Positions 9,414 to 63,000 of a stretch of DNA of 64,000 nucleotides are shown piece after piece (position 1 is the stretch's first letter; the number at the start of each line of letters is the position of its first letter). Location: NCBI GenBank assembly GCA_015039365.1, contig WION01000059.1, positions 150,366 through 214,365 on the forward strand, in the 5' to 3' direction. The notes beneath the pieces are model-generated. The model did no database searches, was not told the DNA's origin, and was given only the letters and a program-made list of their open reading frames with translations. Origin of the DNA: Amanita rubescens (taxonomy: Eukaryota; Basidiomycota; Agaricomycetes; Agaricales; Amanitaceae). The position numbers were made by a program, and so were the translations under genes.

Positions 9414-9820
9414 TGTTAAATATAGAATTATATTTATAGAATGATTAACTACTGATTGACTACAATCAATGTTACTCATATCGCTCGCGTCATCCTTTAT
9501 GTATGACATAGAGATGACATCATAATGACATCATTATGATATCATAGTGACATCATGATAGACTCATGATCACATCTTATGGTGTGCTTAGCACGCCATA
9601 TCTTCTCATCTATACTATATGCTTACACATATGTAGATACATATTTGTTCTCTCTTAGTATATAAACCTGTCCTGTATCGTACAATAGGACAATCCATTC
9701 TCTTCCTCTTACTATCACTACTACGCCGAAGGGTAGTGCTAAGATCATATCGCAATAGGTAAGCTATTGCACCTGCTCATGCTGTGGACACGCTCTCGCG
9801 TAGACCTGTCTTCTTCGTCA
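9414..9820 (+). repeat. 5' LTR of the copia element
   Basis: Starts TGTTAAATATAG and ends TTCTTCGTCA. It contains a series of near-palindromic ATGACATCAT motifs (about 9509-9555) that resemble CRE/ATF-type bZIP sites, and a TATA box (AGTATATAAACC, about 9657-9668) that probably marks the start of U3-driven transcription. Regulation through the bZIP-like sites is inference. Confidence 0.95.
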
Positions 9821-17140: not shown

Positions 17141-17547
17141 TGTTAAATATAGAATTATATTTATAGAATGATTAACTACTGATTGACTACAATCAATGTT
17201 ACTCATATCGCTCGCGTCATCCTTTATGTATGACATAGAGATGACATCATAATGACATCATTATGATATCATAGTGACATCATGATAGACTCATGATCAC
17301 ATCTTATGGTGTGCTTAGCACGCCATATCTTCTCATCTATACTATATGCTTACACATATGTAGATACATATTTGTTCTCTCTTAGTATATAAACCTGTCC
17401 TGTATCGTACAATAGGACAATCCATTCTCTTCCTCTTACTATCACTACTACGCCGAAGGGTAGTGCTAAGATCATATCGCAATAGGTAAGCTATTGCACC
17501 TGCTCATGCTGTGGACACGCTCTCGCGTAGACCTGTCTTCTTCGTCA
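17141..17547 (+). repeat. 3' LTR of the copia element
   Basis: Same 407-bp sequence as 9414-9820; no difference was found by eye. It follows a purine-rich stretch (GCGAAGGGGTG) that would prime plus-strand synthesis and is followed by TAAAT, the right copy of the target duplication. Confidence 0.95.
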
Positions 17548-25673: not shown

Positions 25674-28340
25674 ATGTCTCGTTCTGACTCTCAACTCATC
25701 GCGACTCTCGTCGCACTCGAAAAATGTTCTCCAAAACTCGTAAAATCTTCAATTTATCCAGCACCAGCAGAACCAACAACTCTAGTTCGTAGTTGGAAGA
25801 TGAACGAATTCAAATACTACGATATTCCTTCTCCTTTTCCAACTTACGCTCGTGGTCTTTTTACCATCGATGACCGTATCGTCGTACGTGGATACGACAA
25901 GTTTTTCAATATCGGAGAAGTTCCTTGGACTGAGGTCAGTAAATTCGTTACTATCACCTTCAACTCTCACTCTACTTTCAGTGGTCTTTTCTCGAGTCTC
26001 ATACTCGCTCTCCTTACATTCTCTCTCTCAAATCAAATGGATGCATTATCTTTATCGCAGCACTCTCTTCATCAAAGCTTGTCGTTACTTCAAAACATTC
26101 CCTTGGTCCAGTCACAGGACAAAGCCAAGCTCACGCTCTGGTTGGTGATGTCTGGCTGAAACGCTATCTGGAACAAAAAGAAAAGACAGAGGCAGATCTC
26201 GCAAAGCATTTATGGGATAACAACTGGACCGCAGTTGCCGAGGTACGCGTCATCGTCGTGTTTTGTTCTTTCCAACTCATCCTTAACCCCTATAGCTCTG
26301 CGATGACTCGTTCGAAGAACACGTCCTTCCATACCCACCAGGCAAAACAGGGTTATACCTCCACGGCATCAACACCTGCACAAAAGAATTCTATACCCTC
26401 CCTCCAGAGGCCGTAGATGCTTTTGCCGACGAATGGGGATTCATCAAGACAAAATACATCACGCTGGACTCGATCTCAAAAGTCCGCTCATTCACAGACG
26501 ATATCCGCAAGACCGGAACTTGGGAAGGCGAACCACTAGAAGGATTCGTCGTCCGTACCCATATCACGGAACCTCCCGCATCCGCCTCCCGTGCCGATAA
26601 AGCCACGGCGGGCATGTTACCTTATACCCCCGGCTCAACCTTTTTCTTTAAAATCAAATTCGACGAACCCTACCTCATGTACCGCGATTGGAGGGAAGTA
26701 ACAAAATCCCTCCTAACCATGAATGCGAAAAACGGGACTATGAATCCGAGTAAATTGTCAAGGTCAAAGATGCTTCGGCCAGAGACGAAAGTTTATGTGG
26801 ATTGGGTTATCAAGGAAATTAAACAGAATCCGAAAGCGTTTGAGCAGTATCAGCATAACAAGGGGATTATCAAGACGAGGGAGATGTTTTTGGTGTGGCT
26901 GGCATCGAACGACGGGAAGAAAGTAACTGAGGAACCAAAAGTCGAACAACAACAACAGCCCCAGCCTCGGTTCACGAAAACGATCATTGTTCCAATTGCT
27001 ATTCCCGGGTGCGGAAAAACCGCCGTCTCAGTCGCCCTCACTCACATCTTCAAATTTGGACACACTCAAAGTGACGACGTCCGCGCCAAAAAAGCCGGTC
27101 CCGCCTTTGTCAGAAACGTGATGGAGTTGTTAAAGTCTCATGATGTCGTCATTGCAGACAAGTACGTACTATATGCGTACTCTTTTAGCTAAAACTCTAA
27201 CTCTCTCTGCAAAGAAACAACCACCTCCGCCAACACCGCACCGTTCTACGCGAAGAATCTTTCAACCTATTCAAAAAACAAAAGAAAAAAGCCTCCAAAG
27301 CAGGGAACGACCCAGATCCGGCTGACGAGGATACCTCCCGAGCTAGGCTCCTTGCTCTTCACTGGGATTCCTCCTCCCAACCCCCCGCTACGATCTTCAC
27401 CACATGCGCTGAACGCGTCCGTTCACGAGGGACTAACCACCAAACCCTCCGCGCACCCCCACAAGCGCGTCCCCCCTCTCCCTCTCCCTCTCTCTCTTCC
27501 AACCTATACGAAGACGTGATTTGGAGATTCATAAGAGAGTCGGAGGATCTCCTCCCTTCAGAAGTAGACGCGATCATCGACATGCCTATAAGCGAAGGGT
27601 TAGAAGAAAGCGTGCGTCGTGCCGTAAACGGTATCGTAAAAGAGCTTGGTCTGACTATGCCAAGCGAGGAAAAGGTGAAAGAGGGGATCGAGAAAGTCAA
27701 GGCTTACAAGGTTGCGGAGAAGGCTAAGAAGCCTGATCCTCCTCCTCCCGTTGAGCCCTCTGGTGGTGGTGCTGCACGGTCTGCTGGCACTACAGCGCGG
27801 TATTACGCCTTTTTACCGGATATCGATCTAGAGACGGTGTTGGAGCCCGTGTTTGCGTCGTCCAATGACGAGTTTTGGGCGCATTTGAAGAAGGGCCGGT
27901 TGGCGTTTAAACCTCACGTGACGATCGTACACCGTAAAGAGTTGCCGGTTTCTCAACTGTTGTGGGAGAGATGTGAGAAGCTCGTGAACGAGAATGCGGG
28001 TGCGATGTTTGGTTTGAGAGTGATGAATGTCGTGTGGGATGGGAGGGTTATGGCGCTTACTGTGGATGGCGTCATTCCGTTTGAACTCGACGGCAAACAG
28101 GATGGAGAAGACGGGCGAGCATATAAGCTTGCGAAGGAGTTTGTGAAGGAGTTGCCAGACGAGGAACGGGAGCGGTTACACATTACAGTTGGAACGAAGG
28201 ATGCGGGGATTGTGCCTCTTGAGGCAAAGGCGCTCGTCATGGGTTGGAGGAAGGGGGAGAAGAATGAGGCGCTGAAGGTGCTGGACCTGGGTCCTAATGG
28301 AATTACAGTCAAGGCGAGGATAAGTGGGATGTGGTCTTAG
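25674..28340 (+). CDS. TRL1: Fungal multifunctional tRNA ligase Trl1
   Basis: Exons 25674-25934, 25982-26242, 26296-27161 and 27215-28340 sum to 2514 nt (837 residues). The N-terminal ligase/adenylyltransferase domain has KYYDIPSPFPTYARGLFT and the nucleotidyl-acceptor Lys in LKSNGCIIF (about residue 104). The central polynucleotide kinase has a P-loop, IPGCGKT (about 410). The C-terminal cyclic phosphodiesterase has two HxTx motifs, HVTI (about 697) and HITV (about 785). This is the complete ligase-kinase-CPD order of fungal Trl1, which joins tRNA halves and HAC1 mRNA halves after unconventional splicing. An Ala/Pro/Ser-rich linker separates kinase and CPD. Pieces of this gene recur at 29703-29967 and 40335-40760. 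Confidence 0.95.
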
Positions 28341-28658: not shown

Positions 28659-29717
28659 ATGGCCGCCATCGTTGAGCTTCAGATGCCAATTGATGGTGAA
28701 TACCAGCCTGCGCTATCCATTCCTGTTGAGACGTGTCAGCGCTTCTCATTGCACCCTCTTAAGTGGCTGCGGTATGTCGGGTTTACGATCTATGGCACCA
28801 AAGGCCAAATCTCCCGGTCTGCCGCTGGCCTGGCAGCGGTCCAGTATTCTGAGGTTGATATACAGGCTGGTGTTTATTACTATATACCCGACTCACAAGG
28901 CAAGTTATATTTCGGCGTCCAAGGACCCCTCAATGCTCATTCAATATCAGATCCGTTTCTGCTTGACCCTGATTTGATGGACGACAGGACTTCATATTCA
29001 TCAACTATCTCCACTCGCCAGGCTGATTTCGCACAGAGCGTGACTGATCGCGACGGAACCTGTCTGATGACTGGTGCGACATCAAACTTTCAGGCGTGTC
29101 ATATCATTCCTCACGCAAAGGGAAGCCAGGTGTGTTCTTAATATTTGAATCACTCCCAGTTCTCATTCCAGGCCCAGTACATTACTGGTCTTGCCGATCA
29201 TAGGAATGAAGTTTTGGATCCACCCTTGGATGACATCAACGATCCACGTAACGGAATCCTGCTTTCCGTACAGCTACACAGGCCATTTGGGGCCTCTATC
29301 GTCGCTTTTTTGCAAGTTAGTTATTGTCTTCCATGTGGTTGAACTAATTCGTAGTAGACCCCCAATTTCGCAATGTCTATCACCGACGTGGCCCGAGTCA
29401 TGCAACCCATAGGCTTCAATCCATCGCTCGCAGTCAGTCGCCTCACGTTTCAGCACTTCAATGCCCCTGATGTTGTCACCACGTACGTGGCACCTCACAA
29501 CTCGGATGCGAGGCAACGTGTGGACCATGATGATTGGCCACCACCTCTTCTCTTCGACATCGCCTATGGTTGTGCTGCCCTCAACACCTGGGGGGTGCCT
29601 CAATTTGTGAACTTGGCCCGACAACGCACCAGGCATATTTACTATGACGGGGAGCCAGATGATGTATCGGGCGTTGATCAGAAACGTCGCCAGGAGAGCA
29701 ATCATATAAGCTTGTGA
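28659..29717 (+). CDS. HNH-nuclease-domain protein (HNH_2-like)
   Basis: Exons 28659-29129, 29172-29315 and 29358-29717 give 324 residues. The N-terminal half (about 150 residues, including QRFSLHPLKWLRYVGF) is a conserved-looking, unassigned domain. It is followed by an HNH signature: CLMTGATSNFQACHIIPHAKG (first His pair), then NDPRNGILLSVQLHRPFGA with the central Asn and last His. This layout is found in many basidiomycete proteins of unknown role with Pfam HNH_2. Whether it cuts DNA is unknown. The last few codons come from the TRL1 duplicate, so the C-terminus is truncated or fused. Position between two copies of the TRL1 3' end suggests an insertion-linked origin. Confidence 0.75.
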
Positions 29718-29967
29718 AAAAGTTTGTGAAGGAGTTGGATGAGGAATGGGAGCGGTTACACATTACAGTTGGAATGAAGGATGTAGGGATTGTGCCTCTT
29801 GAGGCAAAGGTGCTCGTCATGGGTCGGAGGAAGGGGGAGAAGAACAAGGCACCGAGGGTGCTGGATCTGGGTCCTAATGGAATTACAGTCAAGGCAAGGA
29901 TAAGTGGGAAGTGGGCTTAGTGGTTGTTCATCTTGAGATGCATTGACACTCATGTATCTAGCATTAA
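29703..29967 (+). pseudogene. Decayed partial duplicate of the TRL1 3' end
   Basis: It matches 28120-28380, including the stop codon and the start of the 3' UTR, with a 3-bp deletion and about 15-20 substitutions by eye. Most substitutions change CpG to TpG or CpA relative to the intact copy. The fragment still encodes HITV and LDLGPNGITVKARISGKW but has no start, so it is not a gene. Confidence 0.85.
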
Positions 29968-30699: not shown

Positions 30700-33600
30700 C
30701 CATAAATTGTTCATAAGTAATGCATGACTATACAAAGAACCTACCATCAATGTGAGTCACCTGCCTATAGAGTAATGTGACCATATCTTGATAACCAGAG
30801 TGCAGAAATTCAGCAGTGATTTCAGTCTTCAGCTTCTGAGCATAGCAGTTTTGCTGGTATTGATACAAGGCTTGTGTAACAGATGGCAGAAATGCTCTGT
30901 TGATCCAAAAGGATAGCTTGGCAATGACAATAATTGCTTCAAAGTTTGAGCATAAATACAGTAAATGAAAAGGAATAATTTACAAACTAAGATCTGGCAA
31001 CCAGTAGGCTTGTTGCAATGGTATCAGTTGCATATCATTCAGAAAGGAAAGATCAAATACCATGATGGCAAAGTGCCGTTTCCTGTCTCCAAACATGGAG
31101 AAAAGTTCATCCTAGTTAGTGTGAGATTAGTGTGACAGTAAAACACCCAATGTATCATCAAACCTACACACTAGCATGCAAACTAATGTGAAAATCAATG
31201 TCTCATTAACCACCATCACTTACCTAGAAGTAATATAAATGACAACAAAATTATCACATGAGGTGGAAGTGGGTGGGCTGAAGTGAAATCTTACAATCTA
31301 CGATGATAATAATGTAAAAGGAAGACATGGAAAAGATATGGCAATATGCTCACTTTCTGATATATGTATGTAAGATGTGATGGGACTCCCTTTCACAAAA
31401 TGTGCAACATCACTCACTTCCTGTTGGTCATAGGAAAAGCTGTGATGGGACTCCCTTTCACAAAATGTGCAACATCACTCACTTCCTGTCAGTGATAGGA
31501 AAAGATGTGATGAGTCCACTTTTCACAAAATGTGCAATGTCACTCACAAGCTGTTGGTCATAGGAAAAGATGTCATGGTCATGAGACTGCCTTTCATATA
31601 ATGTGCAATGTCACTCACTCCCTGTTGGTCATAGGAAAAATGTGATGAGACTGGCTTTCACAAATGTGCTGGTCACTCACAAGCTATTGGTCATAGGAAA
31701 ATGTTTGATGAGACTGGCTATCACACAATGTACATTGAATGTCACTGACTCGCTGTTAGTCATAGGAATTGAAAGGTGTCATGAAACTGGCTTTCACAAA
31801 ATGTGCAATGTCACTCACAAACTGTTGGTCACAGGAAAAGATGTGATGGGTCTACCTTTCACAAAATGTGCAATGTCACTCACTCCCTGTTGGTAATAGG
31901 AAAAGATGTGATGAGACTGGCTTTCACAAACTGTGCAATGTCACTGACTCGCTGTTGATCATAGGAAAAGAGTCTGCCTTTCACACAAATGTGTAATATT
32001 ACTCACAACCTCCAAGTTGGTAGGAAAAGATGTGATGAGCTCATCGCCTTTCATAAGATGTCCAATGTCACTCACAAACTGTTGGTCATAGGAAAAGATG
32101 TGATGAGACTGCCTTTCACATAGTATGCAATGTCACTCACTCCCTGTTGGTCTGATGTGATGACTGCTTTTCATAAAATGTGCAATACAACTCACCCCCT
32201 GTTGGCCATAGGAAAAGATGTGATGATATGTACTGCCTTTCACAAAATGTACAATAGCACTCACTCCCTGTTGGTCATAGTAGGAAAAGATGTGATGAGA
32301 TTGTCTTTGACAAAGTATACAATTTCACTCACTCCCTGTTGATCATAGAAAAGATGTGATTAGACTGCATCCACAAAAATCTTCAATGTTGTCACTCACA
32401 TCCTGTCAGGAATAGGGAAAAATACTTAGAGTAGTTTTCTAGAAATATTTGCAATGTTACTCACATACTGTAGGTCACAGGAAAATTTTGGAAAAGATCA
32501 TCTTTGAGACAAGCTGGCATGACACTGACCTTCTATAGGAAAAGATGTGATTTCACTGCTTAGTACTCACAATATCACTCACAATCTGTAGAACATGAGA
32601 ATGTCTCCAGAGTGTCTTGCAGCAGAGCAGCTAGCAACACTCACTTCCTTTAAGAATTAAATTAGCATAATGAGTTGGGAATACAGAAAACAATGGCACT
32701 GACTCTCTTTTGCCATAGTATTTCATATGATGAATTCAAATCTCACAAAAGTATCACATACATCCTGTTTGTGTTGCAATAGCTTGTCAAGAGGAATTGG
32801 GAGGGGGGAGATATTGATATTTACTGTCTGTTGTTTTGGGACAAGATGTAATGTTTATAATCAGACAGAGGGAAATGTCACTTACTTCCTGTTATTAATA
32901 CAATGAAGTTTGCTGAGCATTGATTTCAAATAACAGTAAGTCACCCAACTTTCTATTGTTCATTGAATTATGTAGAACTTGGGCAACATCAATGTTGCTT
33001 ACTTTCTTTAAGCAGGTTAGATGTGGTGTGAGGCAGTGTTGTGTTACTCACTCCCTGTCCATGAAGGATTGACAAGTCTGCTTACAAAGATGGAGTAACT
33101 TACTTGCTGTTGGTCACCATAGGATCATTTACCAAAAATCAAAATTGGGTCATGTCACTCACTTCCTGTAGAGTATTGGAGATAAGACTGCTGATGGTGA
33201 AAGGACACATTGCTCACAAACTGTTGTCATGAGAAAATATATCAGATCTATGCCAGTTCAATGCCACTCACCCACTGATATTAATGTCATCAGATCCTGC
33301 CAGCAAGAATATGGTGACAACTAACCTCTGTTTCACTTAGTTGTTGATTAGACATCTGAGGTATGACTGGTTTTTTTTTTTCATTTGAAGGCAGTGGAGT
33401 GTTACTTACCTCCTGATGAACTTTTTGCAAGTCTTTGTCATTCCATATGAAGGCCACCTACCTCCCTGTCAACCTATTGACATTATAACTTTTCCTATAC
33501 TAATGTGCAGTTTGACCAAAATGCATACCCAGAAATGTGGAAATTTTGAAAAAACTATGATGATGACATGATCCCATGTCAAATGTTGATGTTTCAGAAC

Positions 33601-34897
33601 ATGTCTGAACATTGTCAATGTTAGTAAGTGACATTGTGAATTTGACCCTCACTGAAGTGCAGATTTAACACAAAGGTCAAGATTATTCATCTGAGTTGAA
33701 ATAAACAGCTGGTGCATGCTATCACTATCTATGACATCAGCAGTTGTCTGAGTCAATTCAGCACAATCATTCTCTGGTAAATCCAGATCTATAAAAGAAC
33801 ATCACTCCCATTTTCAAGAAGAAATACTCATCATTCTCACCTTCAAACCGCACAAATGCCTTGGGAGGATAGTTCACTTCCAAAACTTTAGGAAGATAAA
33901 CTTGCTGAAAAGTGATTTCAGCAATGTTCCTGGCTCTCTCCCACTTATCTTCATCATTCAAGTTTGTATCAGTCAAGTTGACAAATGCACTTGCTATTTG
34001 ACCATCAAATTTGGTGAATATAACCACCAAAGGAACTATAAAGGAAATATTTACTAGTCAGTACTAGTAGATTTGTGGGAAGTTTGCCAATGGAAAGGAG
34101 GTACAATAGTTAATCCAGCAAGTGCAACAAGATGAGATATGAATTCATTAGGACTTGCCTCTGCCTGTCCCTTTATTGAAGAATTCAAGTTCAGCAGGTA
34201 GAATGGGACGAGGGTCATCCATGGGTATACAGTACCTAGAGGCAGGTCAGCCAGTATTGTAATGGGATAAAGCAAGATACCAAATTGCATGCAGCTGGTT
34301 TTTCAGCTCAGTTTCTGCAGACTTCTTTTCAATGAACTTCCAAGTAATCCCCAATTCCTCAGTTGAACCAGATTCAAAACCCAGAGAGTCATGGAAGATA
34401 AAGTTACTTCCAGGGTATGTAATTTGATACTCAATATCATGTTTGCCTCTCTGTTATCCACTGCATGTGAATAGGTACATCTACACATTGGTCTGAGTCA
34501 CCTCAAGTGATGGCATGATTTGAATCCGTTGTCCAAGCTGATTACCTGCAAGGAACTCAACAGCTAAAGGAAGCACAAAACTCAGACCAACTTACTACCA
34601 TAATATATGATGGGCCTTGTCCCCCTTGCTACACCACAAACCTTCTCAAGGATAGTTGTCTTGCCTGCATTAGCCCTCCCCATGACAAGAATGCGCAAGT
34701 GTGGGCATAGATAGTATTCCCTGAGCATTTGAACATCTGTCTCATCCACATCTGATGGTATATGTCAAGGATCAGCCACCATGCTGAGAAACATAAATTG
34801 GCCTACCCGCACTAGGAGTTGCAGTTGCCATCATAATTGATGTTGTGTTAGGATCAGATAGCTGGGTGTGTGAATCAAGAACTTGAAGCTGTGACAT
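30700..34897 (-). CDS. P-loop GTPase-like protein with an array of tiny exons
   Basis: Start ATG 34897-34895. Ordinary exons: 34897-34807, 34751-34599, 34545-34502, 34450-34281, 34235-34159, 34035-33841, 33788-33653 and 33604-33529. The protein has a Walker A motif in LRILVMGRANAGKTTIL, then HDIEYQITYPGSNFIFHDS (switch/Walker B-like, with the conserved D), VPLVVIFTKFD (G4-like TKFD) and a helical segment ending SKFPHFW. This order is that of the expanded G-domain/P-loop family of agaricomycetes with no assigned role. The intron 34158-34036 appears to use a GC donor (GCAAGT). After 33529 come exons of 4, 3 and 2 nt, then about 34 of 3 nt, then a normal exon from 31111 (DELFSMFGDRKRHFAIM). The 3' end near 30700 is not resolved. 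Joins before 33529 are well supported; the tiny exons are inferred from splice signals only. Confidence 0.65.
31168..33465 (-). repeat. Array of intron-length units with AG-NNN-GT junctions (candidate one-codon exons)
   Basis: On the minus strand, candidate acceptor AG and donor GT are separated by exactly 3 nt at (first base): 33274, 33220, 33165, 33106, 33054, 33005, 32952 (weak donor GTTGGG), 32888, 32827, 32764, 32706, 32647, 32585, 32532, 32467, 32402, 32335, 32267, 32198, 32143, 32078, 32009, 31951, 31886, 31821, 31752, 31683, 31621, 31550, 31485, 31420, 31356, 31297 and 31170. Upstream lie a 4-nt (33465), a 3-nt (33412) and a 2-nt (33327) unit. Intervals between units are 46-68 nt except the 82-nt one at 33409-33328 and the last-but-one (124 nt). 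From about 31420 to 32335 the interval sequences are similar tandem copies (GTGAGTGACATTGC...ATGACCAACAG). From 32400 to 33465 they share little sequence, yet keep the same junctions. None of the 34 triplets is a stop codon. Confidence 0.8.
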
Positions 34898-60042: not shown

Positions 60043-63000
60043 TCAGGCATGTGGAGCAAAAGAGGAAGGCCACTTTGTGCCGACATTAAGGTGAGGAGGG
60101 TAGGAAATTGAAATGCTTCCTTGGGGACTAATAACAAATGTATTACTTGGAAATGGTAGATAGGGACGAAAAAGAGGTGATATCCAAAAGAATGGGTAAT
60201 TGTCTACAGTTATCCATCCATCCTGCTTAAATACGAAATGTTTCAAGTGTGAAAGAGGGTGGGGTGTGTGGGGGAAGATGTGATCGTTGTATTTTGCATA
60301 GGTCAATCCACGGATTGTGTGATCGTTTGAGCCAGAGACGATGCGGGTGCCATCCGGAGAGAACGCGACCGACGTAACGTAAGATGTATGACCCTCAAAC
60401 GGACCAGCTACAACGTCCCCACTGCGTGCGTCCCATACTTGGATTGTGTGATCGTGTGAGCCAGACACGATGCGAGTGCCATCCGGAGAGAATGCGACCG
60501 ACGTGATGTAAGATGTGTGACCTTCAAACGGACCAGCAACAATGTTCCCACTGCGTGCGTCCCATACTCGAATTGTGCGATCGTATGAGCCAGAGACAAT
60601 GCGGGTGCCATCCGGAGAGAACGCGACCGACCTGACGGAATTTGTGTGACCTTCAAACGGACCAGCAACAACGTCCCCACTGCGTGCGTCCCATACTCGG
60701 GTTGTGCGATCGTCTGAGCCGGAGACAATGCGGGTGCCATCCGGAGAGAATGCGACGGACCTGATGTAATCTGTGTGACCTCCAAACGGACCAGCAACAA
60801 CGTCCCCACTGCGTGCGTCCCATACTCGGATTGTGAGATCGTATGAGCCAGAGACAATGCGGGTGCCATCCGGAGAGAATGCGACGGACCTGATGTAAGA
60901 TGTGTGACCCTCAAACGGACCAGCAACAATGTCCCCACTGCGTGCGTCCCATACTCGGATTGTGCGATCGTCTGAGCCAGAGACAATGCGGGTGCCATCT
61001 GGAGAGAATGCGACCGACGTGATGTAACCTGTGTGACCTTCAAACGGACCAGCAACAATGTCCCCACTGCATGCGTCCCATACTCGGATTGTATGATCAT
61101 CTGAGCCAGAGACAATGCGGGTGCCATCCGGAGAGAATGCGACGGACCTGATGTAAGATGTGTGACCCTCAAACGGACCAGCAACAACGTCCCCACTGCG
61201 TGCGTCCCATACTCGGATTGTACGATCGTCTGAGCCGGAGACAATGCGGGTGCCATCCGGAGAGAATGCGGCCGACCTGATATAATCTGTGTGACCTTCA
61301 AACGGACCAGCAACAATGTCCCCACTGCGTGCGTCCCATACTCGGATTGTGCGATCGTGTGATCCAGAGACGATGCGGGTGCCATCCAGAGAGAACGCAA
61401 CCGACCTGACGGAATTCTTGTGACCTTCAAACGGACCAGCAACAATGTCCCCACTGCGTGTGTCCCATACTCGGATTGTGTGATCCTCTGAGCCAGAGAC
61501 GATGCAGGTGCCATCTGGAGAGAATGCGACCGACGTGACGTAATCTGTGTGACCTTCAAACGGACCAACAACAACGTCCCCACTGCGTGCGTCCCATACT
61601 CGGATTGCGTGATCCTCTGAGCCAGAGACGATGAAGGTGCCATCCGGAGAGAATGCGACCGATGTGACGTAATCTGTGTGGCCTTCAAACGGGCCAGCAA
61701 CAATGTCCCCACTGCGTGCGTCCCATACTCGGATTGTGCGATCGTCTGAGCCAGAAATGATGTGGGTGCCATCCGGAGAGAACGCAACCGACCTGACGGA
61801 ATTCGTGTGACCCTTGAACGGACCAGCAACAACGTCCCCACTGCGTGCATCCCATACTCGGATTGTGTGATCATCTGAGCCAGAGACAATGCAGGTGCCG
61901 TCCGGAGAGAATGCGACCGATGTGATGTCATCTGTGTGACATTCAAACGGACCAGCAACAATGTCCCCACTGCGTGCGTCCCATACTCGGATTGTGCAAT
62001 CGTCTGAGCCAGAGACAATGCGGGTGCCATCCGGAGAGAATCCTACTGAGAAGACCATCGCATTTGTCTTCCGCAAAACGATTGCTGCACTTTGCCATTC
62101 CTTCATTGCCCTACCCTCCACCTCCATAAGCCCTCGCATATATCCCCAGTAGTTGACATATACTGAACTCGATTTTGCACAGAATGGTACTGCTGAAATG
62201 TAGATGTGGGGTGTACTGCGCATGCATGCTCCACCAGCAAATCGTGCCACGAATGACGCTGCATCAGCAATTTGTTTCATTGTATTACCCGGAAAATCCT
62301 TTCCGGTATATCTCAGTTTCCGAGTCGAGCATGATGTGGCAGATATCCTCACCTTCAACCCGTTCTGCACCTGTCGCAGTATATCGGCTCCCATCAAGAT
62401 CCGTTTCTCAAGGTTCAGTACCTCCATCCAAAATAACAGCTGTTTCCTCAAAAAATTGTCGAGATTCTTGTGGACCGCCTCGCTGGAATTGCCCTTTTGG
62501 AGATGCTCACCCCAGTACCGACACGCGTATGAGAGGGTGGGGGAGATGTGTTTCCTGACTCGGTCTTCTAGGTCTGGCACATCCTCGTCGAATAAATATG
62601 ATGACTCAAGGTCACAGATATTGAACCGCAGCTGTGCTTTCATCACATCGAAGCAACCATTCGCAAGTAGTTCGTGGTGCTGAGCCGCATTGCAATGGAA
62701 CTGTTTAGATCGATCGCGTTGAAGGATATAGTCGGGAAACGATGCATGGAAAGGGGCGACTAGTCCATGTACACCTTCTTGAACGAATAGAACCGACCGC
62801 AATGGTTCCAGCGAAGCTCGAAGTGTATCTTTCGTTAGAGACTGGAGCGACGCAATTGTCTTGAGCGACACGGGTTCCCTCGCGCATACGACCGTCCAGA
62901 GGGTGAGGCGAATATTATCTATTTCATCTGCTTCAAGATCATCGTCGAAGGCTGCGGAGAGAACGCTCTTGTATAATTTATCCAGTTCTTGATGCTGTTT

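Follow-up and report, generated by a model that had tools for sequence, protein, structure and literature searches.

Arrays of predicted one-codon exons in a GTPase gene family of Amanita rubescens

The window (the whole stretch of 64,000 nucleotides that was analysed) carries on its minus strand a GTPase gene whose ordinary exons flank an array of very short units. All gene coordinates below refer to this strand. Exons 1 and 2 (34897-34807 and 34751-34596; 34596..34897) start with the ATG at 34897 and include the P-loop GRANAGKT; their junctions and open frame were checked. The exons of the GTPase domain (33653..34545) are 34545-34502, 34450-34281, 34235-34159, 34035-33841 (which carries the TKFD motif) and 33788-33653, according to the junction check. 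The intron that follows exon 34235-34159 is GC-AG. P-loop GTPases are recognised by the motifs GxxxxGK[ST] and TKxD, found here as GRANAGKT and TKFD; the T, K and D of TKxD are invariant in an alignment of 24 proteins. The last ordinary exon before the array (33529..33604) reads ...HVLKHQHLTWDHVIIIVFSKFPHFW and ends with ...KFPHFW at 33529. The first ordinary exon after the array (31061..31111; DELFSMFGDRKRHFAIM) starts with DELFSMFGD at 31111. Both were delimited by junction check and by comparison with paralog loci. A piece of the C-terminal exon (INRAFLPSVTQALYQ...) was located at 30746..30904 by comparison with array loci. From the ATG at 34897 to the end of the array, the reading frame of the gene is uninterrupted.

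Thirty-four triplets are found from 33274 to 31168, all in phase 0, each preceded by AG and followed by GT (every junction was checked). Their codons are W F E Q G K K E T D R E I K Y D G G G G F V R G F R L G L E E K I C; all 34 are sense codons. Between exon 33604-33529 and exon 31111, all introns (38/38) are GT-AG; 37 are 46-68 nt long and one is 124 nt long. The original prediction of 34 exact three-base units bounded by GT and AG, without a stop and separated by intron-sized segments of 46-68 nt with few exceptions, is borne out by this check, the 124-nt segment being the exception. Units of 4, 3 and 2 nt had been proposed upstream of these triplets. They do exist as AG/GT spacings, but the exons, as seen in intron-free relatives and in the sister gene L044, are 12, 3 and 30 nt long. 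The 12-nt exon GTTGACAGGGAG (VDRE; 33462..33473) corresponds to VGRD in the protein P0048, to VDRA in P0003 and to a 12-nt FRRQ exon in L044. The one-codon exon GAG (E; 33410..33412) is matched in position by a CAT exon of L044. The 30-nt exon MSNQQLSETE (33326..33355) corresponds to MANKQLSEAQ in P0048 and to a 30-nt MSATEMKEIQ exon in L044. Over this region, P0048 reads VGRDEMANKQLSEAQ; P0003 reads VDRAVTNEQLSETK, one residue shorter. With every unit included, the array would contribute 147 nt (49 codons) to the stretch from exon 33604-33529 to exon 31111.

The array itself includes two parts. The constant part (32333..33274; junction check) consists of the 17 one-codon exons W F E Q G K K E T D R E I K Y D G, from TGG at 33274 to GGA at 32335. 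The variable part (31295..32332; repeat search and junction check) consists of one-codon exons from GGA at 32267 to ATT at 31297, the introns of which are tandemly repeated; the tandem repeat spans 31372-32368. The last one-codon exon, TGT (C; 31168..31170), has a 3-nt spacing that recurs in the paralogs (TGT, TTT, CTT, CCT). Just before it, the 124-nt gap (31294-31171) includes a zero-length AG/GT site (31222..31225; AG/GTRAGT-like, 31224/31223). According to a simple pattern, this site is present in 9 of the 14 loci that have this boundary. It is possibly a recursive splice site.

One-codon arrays are real and are found genome-wide. The assembly searched (Amanita rubescens; 75.7 Mb, 786 contigs) includes 849 exact matches to the cassette ACAG-NNN-GTGAGTGACATTGCACATTTTG. 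When a spacing of 0-30 nt was allowed, 880 matches were found, 849 of them with a spacing of exactly 3 nt. A longer cassette pattern with at most three mismatches gave 1059 + 1018 matches and its reversed control none. A triplet of the stop-containing TRR class occurs in 1/849 exact cassettes (TGA, G000:C537:2919-2947, in L011). Array loci were sampled as 20 stretches of 10 kb, plus five distant paralogs. Exons of the window gene adjoin the array in 20/20 of these stretches, on both sides in 19; a piece of exon 1 matches 17 of the 20. In L014, exon 7 and exon 6 match and the 5′ side lies beyond the stretch analysed. Of 241 candidate copies of exon 3 in the assembly, at least 150 were scored; many of these have identical scores in twos and threes, the pattern expected of haplotype copies. 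Among the distant paralogs (60-72% identity to exon 3), arrays are clear in four of five, with 29-42 one-codon exons each; the fifth, L033, has a weak array (3 triplets among 5 parsed exons). The 3-bp exons of a gene number in the tens: 34 predicted in the window, 40 in the alignment of the protein P0121 with L044 and up to 84 parsed per locus.

Two array loci have additional features. A second array, of some 30 sense triplets, is present in L014 (7306-9633), downstream of the gene that precedes it and of that gene's exon 7; no GTPase exon was detected between exon 7 and this array, which is read here as an orphan array or a broken copy. L031 carries within its array a long insertion that is absent from the near-identical L030 (array regions of 6502 and 3720 nt, respectively).

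Exon lengths were analysed in 17 non-redundant loci with a Viterbi parser having a flat exon-length prior (1-45 nt). Training of its splice-site matrices began with sites spaced by 3 nt and continued by iteration free of this constraint. L028, L020 and L031, being near-identical copies, do not enter the non-redundant counts. Nor does L014 enter the parses: its 5′ exons lie outside its stretch and its first array runs into exons 6 and 7. Exactly 3 nt was found for 859/950 internal exons, with 0/859 stops; a block-shuffled control gave 4 exons in 85 parses, none of 3 nt. The distant paralogs gave 134/160 exons of 3 nt and no stop, and their shuffled control 1 exon in 50 parses. In the window, 29/35 exons were called 3 nt; this locus is one of the harder ones because some of its units have weak sites (e.g. 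GTT at 32009 behind a GAG acceptor). A stricter parse gave 0 stops in 839 non-redundant triplets versus 52 expected from base composition, a difference whose Poisson significance is overstated, as tandem units are not independent. The joined triplets read out of frame include 1 stop per 801 (+1) and 94 per 801 (+2). Stop avoidance alone is a weak test of the frame, because the +1 reading has just this one stop.

The two parts of the array evolve differently. The first 17 codons are largely common to the nearer paralogs. Introns at the same place in different paralogs (seven compared) are 72-86% identical inside, whereas neighbouring introns of the constant part within one locus are similar at the level of shuffled sequences. 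The one-codon exons of this part are considered old because their introns are conserved at the same place between paralogs. The proposal that the three-base spacing persists where introns have lost similarity holds: it is found among these dissimilar neighbours and recurs in the paralogs. The codons after the first 17 vary from gene to gene, within introns that can be identical. One 62-nt intron is present in 41, 41 and 21 copies in L017, L026 and L027, with no exact copy in 14 other parsed loci. In the 43 equal-length units of L017, mean entropy is 0.013 bits in the intron and 1.66 at the second codon base; L017 is the extreme, intron entropy being 0.09-0.36 bits in four other loci. Codon matches at lags 4 and 10 exceed the highest of 100 shuffles, which indicates repeated blocks of units. 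Adjacent codons are identical in 111/842 cases (shuffled mean 84.6; 1/500 shuffles as high). This excess is mild; it is compatible with an origin by 3-bp target-site duplication and also with tandem duplication.

Codon choice is narrow, nearly one codon being used per amino acid in one-codon exons. Glycine is encoded by GGA in 91/95 cases and by GGT in 1/95 (GGA in 27/184 in ordinary exons of the same genes), and arginine by CGA in 70/89 (4/130 in ordinary exons). The third base is G or C in 5% of the 859 triplets. Triplets ending with AG (13) or GT (4) are rare among them, which would avoid competing splice sites.

Evidence of splicing was sought in a protein collection clustered at 90%. Several jgi proteins from contigs of about 0.9-2.6 kb cross array junctions without introns; given these missing introns, the jgi contigs are likely to be metatranscriptome RNA. 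P0121 (285 aa, from an intron-free contig of 1,099 nt) aligns with L044 over 52 exons and a genomic span of about 4.0 kb, with 274/285 identical residues. Forty of these exons are exactly 3 nt long and 39 of the 40 match; 27 consecutive ones read W F E T A K N R A K S Y S H E D H Y F A F G Y F R G A. Eleven residues differ: six are in the array, one of them in a one-codon exon. As P0121 aligns through the L044 array, the triplets are spliced in and translated in this sister gene. On L032+L042, P0121 has 271/285 identical residues and again passes through 40 one-codon exons; when the residues of the array were shuffled, mismatches rose from 14 to 37-40 (six trials). On L043, L045 and L046, it has 26, 30 and 32 mismatches, most of which fall in the variable part.

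Six intron-free proteins, P0121 among them, were compared with the window gene itself. Its 17 constant codons are matched without gap by P0003 (14/17) and P0048 (12/17), and 0/100000 permutations were as good; P0018, P0045, P0056 and P0121 match 7, 5, 4 and 5. Over these 17 codons, the comparison of the predicted bridge with homologous GTPases, suggested with the original prediction, agrees with it for P0003 and P0048; the low figures of the other four proteins count against it. The best exon-level identity of P0003 to the array loci examined is 91%; pieces of P0003 and P0056 have best identities of 82% and 77% to the genome among the matches listed. Both proteins are likely to come from species other than A. 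rubescens. The end of P0018 is read here as read-through of an array intron, and that of P0003 as read-through of the last intron. A search with the array region of the window gene gave three candidates and no match. The window copy is read as spliced by homology, since no transcript of its own gene was found in the protein collection. In favour of the literal reading of one amino acid per exon are the avoidance of stops, the exact 3-nt spacing in paralogs and the residues of P0121 and P0003, which occur in the predicted order. It is highly probable that the 34 triplets of the window are spliced in as one-codon exons and encode a linker between the GTPase and C-terminal helical domains.

The protein predicted from these exons was compared with annotated and modelled ones. 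The annotated A. rubescens protein P0001 has 97% identity over 85% of a 315-aa query. Among the annotated proteins of this species, five were examined: four stop upstream of FPHFW or immediately past it, and P0083 continues without the array. A Pfam scan of five family proteins gave only MMR_HSR1 or Arf below the cut-off, or nothing, and neither NACHT nor ankyrin. The segment of P0056 that is homologous to the array-encoded part, residues 294-357, has a pLDDT below 50 in the structure model; the GTPase and C-terminal helical parts, which flank it, are more confident. The array-encoded part is accordingly modelled as a segment predicted to be a flexible linker or loop. IRGs have a fold consisting of a GTPase plus a helical domain. 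The best Foldseek matches include IRG structures, for example IIGP1/Irga6 (best E in the list 2.8e-05; TM-scores <0.45, 9-17% identity). This likeness of the model to immunity-related GTPases is a lead only.

The following mechanism is proposed. Each intron of about 60 nt would be removed singly, by intron definition. The first 17 codons would be an old, largely fixed part and the remaining ones a quickly rewritable part. Similar introns would recombine by unequal crossing-over and gene conversion, so that single amino acids would be gained, lost or exchanged; with each unit being one phase-0 codon, none of these events would disturb the frame. One-codon exons would thus let the fungus vary a protein stretch codon by codon. 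By analogy with the repeat domains of fungal NLRs, codon shuffling would likely serve the diversification of a recognition segment. The heritable unit would then be a single intron-wrapped codon, thousands of which would be shuffled in the Amanita GTPase family as a frame-safe rewriting of a nonself-recognition segment. This broad proposal is tentative, somewhat more apt to be wrong than right. In Podospora HNWD and other fungal NLR repeats (WD, ANK, TPR), as described in excerpts of PMC4986451, tandem units are likewise highly alike, some of their codon positions are hypervariable, and shuffling takes place both inside a gene and from gene to gene. The unit in these NLRs is a protein repeat. 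In Amanita, it consists of one codon with an intron, and it is the intron that is homogenised.

The nearest known case is that of Tuber NLR genes, whose codon-sized microexons are credited to Iotti et al. 2012 in the portions seen of PMC4986451, PMC3689799 and PMC10197012. According to these portions, the Tuber nank genes, like the Amanita arrays, have tens of 3-bp microexons in an expanded fungal family and are tied to the diversification of recognition proteins. The host gene there is an NLR, with NACHT and ankyrin domains, in another phylum, whereas the Amanita host is a GTPase. The mechanism reported there is alternative splicing; in Amanita, codon differences between gene copies are visible in the DNA. 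The one-codon exons of Amanita could be real and yet included in varying subsets, the diversity being made mainly in RNA as in Tuber nank genes. The Tuber microexons are indeed described, in these portions, as alternatively spliced; any subset of 3-nt exons keeps the frame; and intron read-through at the ends of P0003 and P0018, as read here, points the same way. However, P0121 carries its 27 consecutive one-codon exons without a skip, P0003 and P0048 carry exactly 17 residues for the 17 constant codons of the window, and diversity is already given by codon differences between copies at the DNA level. Generation of the diversity mainly by alternative splicing is therefore considered rather unlikely, though it is the most probable of the rival readings.

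Recombination between copies is the proposed source of variation. Allele-like pairs were compared. The window and L028 differ at 20 aligned sites and L018 and L020 at six, none of them seen in a triplet. Codon sites changed are 0/189 (L019/L039), 0/165 (L022/L040) and 1/123 (L025/L041). L026/L037 was left out of these counts, L037 stopping at a contig end; its codon strings agree across the shared part. L017 and L038 are identical at 309/314 sites upstream, at 891/896 in the constant part and at 96.8% downstream. They have the same 62-nt intron (41 and 26 copies) and different variable codons, and the length difference between them consists mostly of complete or almost complete units. This pattern would favour block exchange, unequal crossing-over and conversion rather than steady point mutation. 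The predicted growth by cassette duplication finds support in these mostly whole-unit differences and in the near-identical introns within arrays. The variable parts of L017 and L038 include 2- and 4-nt units (CA, CATT, AATT, CTTC) among the triplets, not all of them compensating. Some copies may be broken by frameshift, because the parsed exon sums of L017 and L038 are not multiples of 3.

Codon-targeted hypermutation, by which triplets would be rewritten and introns left untouched, is improbable. It would explain that L017 and L038 differ in most variable codons within identical introns, and that an alignment of this pair that does not keep units in register has differences at 44/136 codon sites and 38/3493 other sites. 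It would also explain the four codon changes of L030/L031 (about 1% divergence), two of which are CAA to CTT double changes. The case for fast rewriting rests on L017/L038 and L030/L031, since the five other allele-like comparisons have no codon excess (0/189, 0/165 and 1/123 in those where codon sites were counted). Moreover, a codon set as narrow as GGA for 91/95 glycines and CGA for 70/89 arginines fits copying from a pool better than random mutation.

Insertion of introner-like mobile introns between the codons of an ordinary exon is no more probable than hypermutation. Fungal introner-like elements, according to excerpts of PMC4457414, likewise include hundreds of near-identical introns per genome; the 849 exact cassettes are in this range, copies are spread genome-wide, and one 62-nt intron is identical at 3/17 loci (41, 41 and 21 copies). 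These elements are found in unrelated genes, whereas the Amanita introns are arrayed in one family, as sampled: the 20/20 array loci sampled belong to one GTPase family. Phase-0 insertion at every codon is implausible, and the introns of the constant part are old and conserved in position. A decayed minisatellite within one long intron, with the triplets skipped, would agree with the tandem repeat at 31372-32368 and with the annotated proteins (four of five stop before or just after FPHFW and P0083 bypasses the array), but it is hardly credible, given the avoidance of stops, the 3-nt spacing between mutually dissimilar introns and the residues present in intron-free sequences, by which it is contradicted for the sister gene (P0121 on L044).

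Introner insertion, the skipped minisatellite and the single long intron were rejected on this evidence. A single 2.4-kb intron, a stwintron and skipped triplets are all contradicted in the sister gene by P0121 on L044. In stwintrons and in zero-gain recursive splicing, no exonic sequence is kept between introns; the triplets are kept in the intron-free sequence of the sister gene, and one zero-length AG/GT site was found, at 31224/31223.

The arrays of predicted one-codon exons resemble other systems in part. Aphid bicycle genes, in excerpts of PMC9168663, likewise evolve fast and have many unusually small exons of one phase; their internal exons are almost all of phase 2, whereas the Amanita array exons are of phase 0 and 3 nt long. 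Isolated ultra-short exons that are spliced in are described, in the portions seen, for Arabidopsis (1 nt; PMC4674806), Fusarium (1 nt; PMC12940212) and Drosophila hth (3 nt; PMC7392893); these are single exons, whereas those of Amanita form arrays. Among the open-licence PubMed Central papers listed, considered by title and start of abstract, no such arrays were found in Amanita or in GTPases. What is new relative to Tuber is the phylum, the protein family, the large number of genes and the variation of codons from copy to copy at the DNA level. Arrays of codon-sized microexons, so far reported, in the portions of the literature seen, only from a truffle NLR family, are thereby extended to another phylum and protein family. 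For splice-site recognition by the spliceosome, a gene with dozens of 3-nt exons in a row is an extreme situation. Gene annotation misses the arrays in the five annotated A. rubescens proteins examined. A one-codon cassette would be a frame-safe recombination unit, and diversification of recognition proteins without frameshifts becomes testable.

Other features are found elsewhere in the window. A tandem repeat (60311-62041; 13.4 copies of 129 bp, 89% matches) resembles WD repeats, which we take to indicate a possible NLR-type gene. The ATGACATCATA tandem repeat is found at 9503-9576 and again, 7.7 kb apart, at 17230-17303; these two copies suggest a larger duplication. Two open frames are present on the plus strand, at 26296-28340 and 29678-29920: the former presumably resembles a fungal tRNA ligase, and the latter is presumably a second, short copy of its C-terminal end.
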